From Nitrospira sp. (GTDB taxonomy: Bacteria > Nitrospirota > Nitrospiria > Nitrospirales > Nitrospiraceae): a stretch of 64,000 nt of DNA. Position 1 is the first letter of the stretch. Each line of letters opens with the position of its first letter. A model generated the notes under the pieces. It saw only the letters and a program-made list of their open reading frames with translations. It did not search any database and was not told the DNA's origin. Both the position numbers and the translations under genes were made by a program. This document shows, one piece after another, positions 55,671 to 59,137 of this stretch. The stretch covers positions 75,888 through 139,887 of the forward strand of contig JAFEBI010000006.1 of NCBI GenBank assembly GCA_018242725.1. Reading direction: 5' to 3'.

Positions 55671-55991
55671 TTATGCGGACAGACAGTCACTCATAAACTT
55701 CTTCCGCTCGTCGCCTTTTAACTGCTTTTCACCAGCCTCTTTGTTGCACGTCTTCATCTTGTTCTGCTGAGTATCTTTGCCGCCTCCGCCTTTCTCCGAT
55801 TTGGCGGAAAGGCATTCCTTCATAAACGCCTTCCGTTCGTCGCCCTTTCCTTCGCCGAACCCCTTTGCATTCGCCTGTTCGTTACAGGCTTTCATCTTAT
55901 TTTGTTGCTCGGGTGCGGCTGCAGCGAATGGAGTCGCCCCAAGAGTGAACGCAAAGCATGTCAGTGTGAGGACACGTAGAACTCTCCGCAT
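55671..55991 (-). CDS. psiF: PsiF-repeat protein, secreted
   Basis: 106 aa on the minus strand. An N-terminal signal peptide (VLRVLTLTCFAFTLGATPFA, cleaved near AAAA) is followed by two PsiF repeats: NKMKACNEQANAKGFG with ERKAFMKECLSA, and NKMKTCNKEAGEKQLKG with ERKKFMSDCLSA. Each repeat has two cysteines, probably forming a disulphide. PsiF was named from phosphate-starvation induction in E. coli, but its biochemical role is unknown. Nearby phosphonate genes make the phosphate link interesting. Confidence 0.85.
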   Translation of the reverse strand: MRRVLRVLTLTCFAFTLGATPFAAAAPEQQNKMKACNEQANAKGFGEGKGDERKAFMKECLSAKSEKGGGGKDTQQNKMKTCNKEAGEKQLKGDERKKFMSDCLSA

Positions 55992-56281: not shown

Positions 56282-57916
56282 ATGAGCTCACCCCCCGATA
56301 CCATGCCAGCGCGTCAGTTTCGGAAGCTTCTCTTGTCGGATCAGGTGGAATTTATCTGCGAAGCCCATAACGGCCTTAGTGCAAAGATCGTTCAAGAAGC
56401 AGGTTTCAAAGGTATCTGGGCCAGTGGTCTTTCCATCTCGGCTCAATTTGGAGTTCGCGATAACAACGAGGCCAGTTGGACTCAGGTCTTGGATAATCTG
56501 GAGTTCATGTCCGATGCGGCCACGATTCCTATTCTGCTCGATGGTGATACGGGATACGGCAATTTTAATAATATGCAGCGGCTGGTCCGTAAACTGGAGC
56601 AACGGCGTATTGCTGCCGTGTGCATCGAAGACAAGCTGTTCCCCAAGACGAATAGCTTCATCAAGGGGGACGCGCAGCCGATGGCGGACATGCAAGAGTT
56701 TTGCGGTAAGATCAAGGCGGGCAAAGATGCCCAGACTGACTCGGACTTTTGCATTATCGCCAGAGTCGAAGCTTTTATCTGTGGCTGGGGGCTTGCGGAG
56801 GCGCTGCGACGGGCCGAGGCTTATCGCCAGGCCGGTGCGGACGGGATTCTCATCCATAGTGCGCTGTCGGTGCCTGATGAAATACTGTCGTTCAAGCAGG
56901 AATGGGGAAATCGATGCCCCGTCGTGATCGTACCGACGAAGTATTATGCGACCCCGACAGAGGTATTTCGACAGCATGGATTTTCGATTGTCATTTGGGC
57001 CAATCACCTGCTTCGGGCCGCCGTGGCGGCCATGCAGAAAACAGCCTCGACGTTGAAAGAACAGGAGCATCTCCTGTCTATTGAGGACAAGGTAGCTTCC
57101 GTCGCCGAGATCTTTCGTTTGCAAAATGCGGCTGAACTGCAGGATGCCGAAGACCGTTATCTTCCTCGAGGGGTAGAAAACACCGGGGCCATCGTGCTGG
57201 CGGCGTCACGCGGCGAGGAACTCCGGGAATTGACCGAACATCAGCCGAAGACGATGGTGAAGATTCAAGGGACACCGATTCTCGCCCATATTGTGGATGC
57301 CTATAACGCTGTAGGGATCAAAGACATTACGGTCGTCCGTGGTTATAAGAAGGAATCGGTCAATCTGCCCAACCTGAGGTATTTGGATAACGACGACTTT
57401 GCCGACACCGGTGAGTTGGATTCACTGCAGAAAGCTTTCGGCATGCTGAAGAGCCCATCAAAGGACTTGATCATTTCTTATGGGGATGTGCTGTTCAATA
57501 CATACATCCCGCAAGCGCTCTGTCAGGAGAACGAAGACTTCGTGATCTTTGTGGATAGCGATTGGCAAAACCAAAGCAGCTATGTGCGCCTTGGTGGCTT
57601 TGTCGAATGCTCCTTGCCGAATTCGAAGAGGGCGTTTAATGCCAAGGTCTATTTGAAGCAGCTAGGGAATACGGTAGGGAGAGGGCAGACCCACGGAGTT
57701 TGGATGGGGTTTCTGAAAGTTTCTCCTGCCGGAGCGGCTCAACTTCAGACCATTCTTTCGACGATAATGGGCGATCCTATGAATCGAAAAGCCGGCATCC
57801 CTCATCTCTTGCAGGAACTGTTGACGCGACAGCTGCCGATTCGCGTGTTGTATACCGTGGGGCATTGGCTCGACATCAACAGTCTCGATGATGTGGTCCA
57901 GGCGGGAAACTTTTGA
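56282..57916 (+). CDS. pepM: Phosphoenolpyruvate mutase fused to a nucleotidyltransferase
   Basis: 544 aa from ATG 56282, chosen for the ribosome site and because the earlier ATG 56234 adds residues unlike the family. Residues about 10-295 are PEP mutase: [39 protein letters not shown] and [20 protein letters not shown], the residues that distinguish it from isocitrate-lyase relatives. Residues about 310-544 are an NTP-transferase domain ([52 protein letters not shown]), as in CTP:phosphonate cytidylyltransferases. It makes phosphonopyruvate and may activate a phosphonate headgroup. Confidence 0.9.
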
Positions 57917-58003
57917 TGCTTCGTCTCTCCAGGGTCTTCTGTGAAACAGTGTGCGTCTGAACAGCATGTGCCAGTGATTGAAGAACCGTAAGGATAAGAA
58001 CGC

Positions 58004-59137
58004 ATGATCGATCCACATGAGTTTGTTGCATGTCTCAAGGAGAACGGCGTTGAGTTTTTCAGCGGAGTTCCCGATTCTCTCCTCAGAGAATTGTGCGCTT
58101 GTTTTGCGCAAGAGAGTCGCGCCGGTCAACATATTGTTGCAGCCAACGAAGGTGGCGCCGTGGCTTTGGCGTCGGGGTATCATTTGGCGACAGGAAAGCT
58201 TCCGCTCGTCTATTTGCAAAACTCAGGTTTAGGCAACATCATTAATCCGCTCCTCTCGCTGGCTGATCAGGAGGTGTATTCCATACCGATGTTGCTCGTG
58301 ATCGGTTGGCGGGGAGAACCAGGCGTCCACGATGAGCCGCAGCACAAGAAACAGGGGCGTGTGATGTTGCCCATGCTGGACGCGATGGAAATCCCCTTTT
58401 CCCTGTTGACCCCGGAATTCGATCATGCGGACACAATCCTGAAAGATGCTGTGGCACATGCACGAAAGACCCATGCTCCCTATGCGCTTGTTGTGAAGAA
58501 GGATACATTCAAACCTTTTACGGCTGTTCAATCCGAGAGCGTGTCGTTCCCGCTGTCGCGTGAGGAGGCCATCCAACAGGTGATCGATGGGCTGGATGAT
58601 CGTGATGTGATTGTGTCGACCACCGGCATGCCGTCTCGCGAGGTGTATGACTACAGGCGAAAAAAAGGGAGCGGCCATCACCGTGATTTTTTAACCGTGG
58701 GCGGCATGGGGCATGCTTCCCACATTGCGCTCGGTATTGCGCTTCAACAGCCAGACCGTTCGGTCTATTGTTTGGATGGAGATGGAGCGATGCTGATGCA
58801 TATGGGCGCCCTTTCCCTTAATGGAACACTGAAACCGAGAAACTTCAGGCACATTATCCTGAACAATGGAGCGCATGATTCAGTCGGGGGGCAACCGACT
58901 GTGGGATTGGCGATCGACTTTCTCGGTATTGCTCGCGCATCCGGTTACGGACAAGTCTTACGAGCTCAGACCAAACAGGAGCTTCAGAGTAGCCTCACAG
59001 ACCTCAAACGTTCGAGCGGACCTAGTTTACTGGAGATTCGTGTGCGTCGAGGGGCCAGAAAAGATTTGGGTCGACCGGCTACGACACCCATTCAGAACAA
59101 GCGGGCATTCATGGATTTTATCGGATCTCAGGGATAG
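58004..59137 (+). CDS. aepY: Phosphonopyruvate decarboxylase
   Basis: 377 aa. ThDP-enzyme signatures: GVPDSLLRELCACFAQ, AANEGGAVALASGYHLATGK and VYLQNSGLGNIINPLLSLAD on the pyrimidine side, then VYCLDGDGAMLMHMGALSLN and LNNGAHDSVGGQPTVGLAID on the pyrophosphate side. These match phosphonopyruvate decarboxylase closely. It converts the unstable phosphonopyruvate to phosphonoacetaldehyde and so pulls the PEP mutase reaction forward. It lies 87 bases after pepM on the same strand. No 2-aminoethylphosphonate transaminase is seen next to it. Confidence 0.93.
   Translation: MIDPHEFVACLKENGVEFFSGVPDSLLRELCACFAQESRAGQHIVAANEGGAVALASGYHLATGKLPLVYLQNSGLGNIINPLLSLADQEVYSIPMLLVIGWRGEPGVHDEPQHKKQGRVMLPMLDAMEIPFSLLTPEFDHADTILKDAVAHARKTHAPYALVVKKDTFKPFTAVQSESVSFPLSREEAIQQVIDGLDDRDVIVSTTGMPSREVYDYRRKKGSGHHRDFLTVGGMGHASHIALGIALQQPDRSVYCLDGDGAMLMHMGALSLNGTLKPRNFRHIILNNGAHDSVGGQPTVGLAIDFLGIARASGYGQVLRAQTKQELQSSLTDLKRSSGPSLLEIRVRRGARKDLGRPATTPIQNKRAFMDFIGSQG

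Follow-up and report, generated by a model that had tools for sequence, protein, structure and literature searches.

What does a Nitrospira genome make with a PEP mutase that carries a nucleotidyltransferase-fold domain, and does that domain activate the product? The window, a stretch of 64,000 nucleotides on contig C31 of a 4.02-Mb, 96% complete genome, encodes such a fusion followed by a phosphonopyruvate decarboxylase, downstream of a polysaccharide locus. Our preferred reading, to which we assign a probability of about three in four, is that the pair opens a 2-aminoethylphosphonate (AEP) pathway split over two loci, and that the fused domain is most likely not an AEP cytidylyltransferase.

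A PEP mutase and phosphonopyruvate decarboxylase pair

The features under study are as follows.

55671..55991, minus strand: psiF-repeat protein, divergent neighbour (PF07769, 109.7 bits; synteny)
56282..57916, plus strand: PEP mutase fused to a nucleotidyltransferase-fold domain, 544 aa (TIGR02320, PF12804 and 1m1b matches; catalytic residues)
57170..57913, plus strand: C-terminal PntC-fold domain, residues 297-544, non-canonical (AlphaFold2 model, 6pd2 match, residue table)
58004..59137, plus strand: single-chain phosphonopyruvate decarboxylase, 377 aa (TIGR03297)

The pair is real. GAGGAAAGG precedes the ATG at 56282, and the 544-aa frame ends at 57916; residues 13-283 match PEP mutase (TIGR02320, 389 bits; cut-off 319.55), residues 303-424 match NTP_transf_3 (PF12804, 40.5 bits; cut-off 27) and 58004-59137 matches phosphonopyruvate decarboxylase (TIGR03297, 500 bits; cut-off 312.5), in agreement with the coordinates and gene identities that the earlier note gave for 56282-59137. 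Alignment with Mytilus PEP mutase (1m1b, 423 bits), a single-domain chain that lacks the nucleotidyltransferase domain of the window protein, covers the full mutase part, which shares with 1m1b an intact EDKx5NS motif and equivalents of S46, D58, D85, D87, E114, K120, N122, S123, R159 and H190, which we take to be the numbering of the Mytilus active site. Altered mutase residues had been named as grounds for giving up the proposed C-P bond-forming core; because all checked Mytilus active-site residues are present, that ground falls away and the genes of that core are confirmed. In the tree the mutase falls in the Nitrospira clade, and it shares 96% identity with its counterpart from Nitrospira sp. 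UW-LDO-01. A decarboxylase of the window type is present in just 18/53 related Nitrospira loci (L102-L154), so this gene is an optional extra.

The Rfam search of the window gave no matches, and promoter and terminator scans of the window gave results near chance. In all of the window's clade, the mutase has as its divergent neighbour the psiF-repeat gene, whose name refers to phosphate starvation; as far as shown this gene stands outside the pathway, and phosphate control of the mutase is possible.

Phosphonolipid-type genes on a second contig

We saw neither a transaminase nor LicD nor a CDP-alcohol phosphotransferase among the genes annotated around the pair. The earlier statement that an AEP transaminase is missing thus holds for this neighbourhood but not for the genome, in which the whole-genome search found a candidate on contig C29 (TIGR03301, 351.2 bits, just below the equivalog cut-off of 360.8). 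It belongs to a tight phosphonolipid-type operon of six genes: two decarboxylase halves, the transaminase, a stand-alone PntC, a CDP-alcohol phosphotransferase and an HpnL-like membrane protein. The two halves together correspond to a TPP decarboxylase and resemble sulfopyruvate decarboxylase and phosphonopyruvate decarboxylase about equally. The stand-alone cytidylyltransferase (P0004) has the AEP enzyme Tde-PntC (6pd1) as its best solved match and carries the PntC motif, K25, D106, K153 and the acidic amine-site residues. The membrane protein (LPG_synthase_TM) scores 159 bits, below the cut-off of 195.65. The C29 operon contains no PEP mutase, and C29 and C31 have no physical link in the assembly. 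One genome therefore holds the phosphonolipid gene set of PepM, Ppd, AEPT, NTPT, CDP-alcohol phosphatidyltransferase and HpnL, split over two loci.

The CDP-alcohol phosphotransferase bears an N-terminal extension; in L014:7109-8545 this extension is nucleotidyltransferase-like but lacks the GxGxR..PK motif, giving one pathway two diverged domains of the nucleotidyltransferase fold. All six operon genes are intact in 11/11 further operon loci fetched away from a mutase, 8 of them in window-type genomes and 3 in genomes in which no mutase was found. One genome (G096, L101) has a second, broken operon copy, running from the transaminase to the membrane protein, ~17 kb from the intact one. For phosphonoacetaldehyde reductase, the single Fe-ADH match (41.8 bits) is too weak to build on.

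The fused domain has a PntC fold and lacks PntC catalytic residues

PF12804 is carried by about a third of Ppm proteins (PMC6697681), so the mutase-nucleotidyltransferase fusion is, as had been stated, of a known type. Modelled alone with AlphaFold2 (pLDDT 90.1), the fused domain has the PntC/LicC fold on structure comparison of the predicted model, with Tde-PntC (6pd2) as its best match (Z 27.3, rmsd 2.2 over 226 residues) and LicC (1jyl) as the next (Z 25.7). The residues tell another story. Where canonical PntC has GxG(T/S)R..PK, the window domain has ASRGEEL..QPK; the GXG(T/S)RX4-8PK consensus with its catalytic Arg is replaced by S-R-G-x-E..PK in 37/37 Nitrospira orthologues. Arg15 of the Tde-PntC pyrophosphate loop is Glu in 37/37 window-type domains and Gln or His in 8/8 fusions of a second mutase type described below. 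Glu104 and Glu196, which contact the AEP amine, become Tyr and a hydrophobic residue (Ile in the window type), and Lys153 is lost in all fused domains but one, mostly to N/D. Lys25 and Asp106 are retained, and a different Arg, that of SRG, is conserved near the lost Arg15, for which it might stand in. In Tde-PntC, the mutants R15A, K25A and K153A have <10% activity (Rice et al. 2019, PMC6697681). Stand-alone Nitrospiraceae PntC proteins keep the Arg, Lys25, Asp106, Lys153 and the acidic amine-site residues in 18/18 cases.

The same loss extends beyond the phylum. The Arg15 position is without Arg in 26/26 fused relatives from six phyla outside Nitrospirota, and a separate ORF with a canonical PntC motif occurs in the fetched stretch of 21 of these; the 26 were chosen by similarity to the window protein, so this sample does not represent every PF12804 fusion. 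Across lineages the position holds Glu, Gln, His, Asp, Gly or Ala.

The fused domain is under purifying selection and is not decaying: its median dN/dS, from a simple counting method on pairs with dS < 1.5, is 0.077, and that of the mutase part is 0.031. It conserves a signature of its own (SRGxEL, TGEL, YGD, VD and GHW), and 16 columns are invariant over 20 fused-domain sequences, including Lys27, Glu82, Asp106 and Asp129 (domain numbering). Because residues that characterised PntC requires are missing and a canonical PntC is encoded in the C29 operon, the fused domain is probably not a CTP:AEP enzyme. On the residue table we reject a CMP-forming enzyme as the main reading, and the earlier proposal that the domain yields a CMP derivative is probably wrong.

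The retained K25 and D106, the SRG arginine and the purifying selection leave room for turnover of a different substrate, or even of AEP. The domain could be an active nucleotidyltransferase on, for example, another phosphonate or another nucleotide, giving a second product beside CMP-AEP. Its own conserved signature with 16 invariant columns and the selection on it fit such a role; the varied residues at the pyrophosphate-loop Arg are hard to reconcile with one conserved catalytic mechanism, and we saw only one set of downstream enzymes. We regard this alternative as unlikely.

The neighbouring polysaccharide locus is incidental

With Wzy_C, Wzt and glycosyltransferases, the upstream locus is an O-antigen type locus; it ends near 47.7 kb. 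It is separated from the pair by psiF and by eight unrelated plus-strand genes that run from phosphomannomutase to CysE. Within the window's clade the mutase sits between cysE/psiF and truA, and in most other Nitrospira lineages it is elsewhere. On this synteny we reject a tie between the pair and the polysaccharide locus, which is incidental to it. LicD (PF04991) had no matches in the whole genome, with controls matched in two genomes, and the absence of this transferase removes a LicD-type phosphonoglycan route.

These results bear on the proposal that the fused domain cytidylylates a phosphonate for an envelope glycan built by the neighbouring locus. The PntC fold with 6pd2 as best match, the retained Lys25 and Asp106, and the frequency of PF12804 fusions in phosphonate clusters (PMC6697681) speak for it. 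The lost equivalents of Arg15, Lys153, Glu104 and Glu196, the separate canonical PntC, the missing LicD and the unconserved location of the mutase speak against it, and we consider it improbable. The earlier view that the polysaccharide locus indicates the product is likewise unsupported, since the mutase lies elsewhere in most Nitrospira lineages, LicD is absent and the operon suggests a lipid-type acceptor.

Two mutually exclusive mutase fusions in Nitrospiraceae

We tallied 147 Nitrospiraceae genomes, using the CDP-alcohol phosphotransferase as operon marker. The window-type mutase occurs in 90 genomes, a second-type fusion ~35-45% identical to it in 39, and both together in none (Fisher 5e-22, a value that overstates independence because the counted genomes are related). 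The marker is present in 134/147 genomes, of which 126 have one mutase type or the other. The second type lies 4.2-8.7 kb from the marker in 35/35 genomes with both on one contig; the window type lies 0.95-3.6 Mb away in 10/10 same-contig genomes and on a separate contig in 77. TIGR02320 scores for whole genes are >380 bits for the window type and 266-290 for the second, a clean separation. In the tree each type has a clade of its own, both with support of 100/99: that of the window type is nested within fusions from proteobacteria and spirochaetes, and that of the second type has long branches, which make its exact place unsure. Both types occur inside one genus, so more than one event is needed.

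In the window genome, the mutase slot by the C29 operon is empty, its flanking genes are syntenic with genomes that hold the second-type mutase there, and no relic of a second-type mutase was found in the slot. Because the two types are mutually exclusive and the second lies beside the operon, the window gene most likely acts in place of the operon-side mutase, supplying the distant C29 operon. The plain reading is of a non-orthologous replacement in which the new gene landed in different places in different clades.

Second-type fusions (L059-L066, for example L060:8918-10594) have EDNVYPKRCS instead of EDKx5NS, and score 271 bits as PEP mutase compared with 259 bits as phosphonopyruvate hydrolase. 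This type is also found in another Nitrospirales family and in another family of the class (59-68% identity). An operon without any mutase found is present in three genomes (G057, G119 and G145; estimated 90-95% complete), and in G145 (L097) an IS5-like transposase occupies the mutase slot by the complete operon. A further PEP mutase of the window genome lies on contig C5 (L009:9622-11004, 398.9 bits), has an N-terminal cytidylyltransferase-like domain (PF01467) and shares an island with glycosyltransferase genes and flagellin-like genes; this mutase may serve to decorate a glycan of the flagellum or the surface.

Alternatively, the pair would be unrelated to the C29 operon, its phosphonoacetaldehyde would go to another product, and the operon would either depend on the CTP_transf-PepM protein of C5 or involve no C-P chemistry. 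The window's own decarboxylase, the second PEP mutase on C5 and the three genomes with an operon and no mutase are what this alternative has in its favour; we hold it to be improbable given that a C5-like second mutase is above cut-off in this genome only, among 147, that operon and fused mutase occur together in 126/134, that exclusivity with the operon-side mutase is strict, and that Burkholderia, Mycetohabitans and myxobacterial clusters join a mutase of the window kind to the operon's genes.

A predicted AEP pathway split over two loci

From gene content, operon structure, residue states, exclusivity and trees, we infer the reactions, the lipid acceptor and the role of the fused module. 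The window mutase would convert PEP to phosphonopyruvate, which the window decarboxylase and/or the split C29 decarboxylase would convert to phosphonoacetaldehyde, both enzymes being predicted to carry out the same step. The C29 transaminase would aminate this to AEP, the stand-alone C29 PntC would activate AEP with CTP, and the CDP-alcohol phosphotransferase would transfer it, probably onto a lipid alcohol. Movement of the product may fall to the HpnL-like membrane protein. The acceptor is uncertain because the phosphotransferase resembles inositol-phosphate enzymes. Pointers to a hopanoid are the Roseomonas neighbourhood, the HpnL-like protein and a squalene-hopene cyclase in this genome; no squalene-hopene cyclase was found within the other clusters fetched. 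The window mutase would have replaced the non-orthologous fusion still found beside the operon in other Nitrospiraceae. The fused domain would be a conserved module of PntC fold, with a possible role in sensing a nucleotide or product, in scaffolding the enzyme, or in catalysis on another substrate. More tentatively, throughout its large family the fused domain could be, instead of a second cytidylyltransferase, a PntC that has diverged to bind CTP or CMP-AEP and to control how fast C-P bonds form, like regulatory pyrophosphorylase subunits; Nitrospiraceae would then swap this enzyme for an EDNx5CS mutase class that motif censuses would miss, and phosphonate lipids would be a core trait of these nitrifiers.

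Relation to known phosphonate systems

PEP mutase-PF12804 fusions, separate PntC enzymes and phosphonolipid-type clusters are already known (PMC6697681, PMC5987646). The window protein shares domain order and fused-domain fold with the Ppm-PF12804 fusions and PntC of Rice et al. 2019 (PMC6697681), in whose gene clusters a separate PntC is also present, as in this genome. Unlike PntC of that study, its fused domain has neither the GXG(T/S)R motif nor the contacts to the AEP amine, and the enzymes characterised there are not PEP mutase fusions. Nostoc and Burkholderia clusters with these parts have been proposed to make phosphonolipids (PMC5987646, after Yu et al. 2013). With those clusters this genome has PepM, Ppd, AEPT, NTPT, CDP-alcohol phosphatidyltransferase and HpnL in common, whereas here a long distance separates the mutase and an additional Ppd from the remaining genes, the Ppd of the C29 operon is split into two genes, its phosphotransferase has a degenerate N-terminal extension and no 2OG-Fe(II) oxygenase gene was noted beside it. 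In Mycetohabitans, Roseomonas, Burkholderia and myxobacterial loci, a fused mutase of the window kind lies directly beside genes of the operon kind. On a Roseomonas marmotae plasmid (L012:7055-17572), the fused-mutase cluster is next to squalene-hopene cyclase, hpnH and polyprenyl synthetase genes; an undiscovered terpene-phosphonate has been suggested in a paper on Acetobacteraceae (PMC8776678).

In the open-licence literature we found nothing on point for phosphonate biosynthesis or a phosphonolipid in Nitrospira, and no description of this pathway in the genus, its near-universality in Nitrospiraceae, the two mutually exclusive mutase fusions or the consistent loss of PntC catalytic residues from the fused domain. 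Nucleotidyltransferase domains fused to PEP mutase have previously been read as phosphonate-activating, and from the present pattern we predict that this reading fails for one widespread fused class; the separate PntC offers a natural control for a test of the named residues in the fused domain. Swapping occurs between two PEP mutase fusions that are not orthologous, and one of these lacks the motif used to count PEP mutases. Phosphonate lipids are predicted to be near-universal in Nitrospira, major nitrifiers that include the complete ammonia oxidisers.
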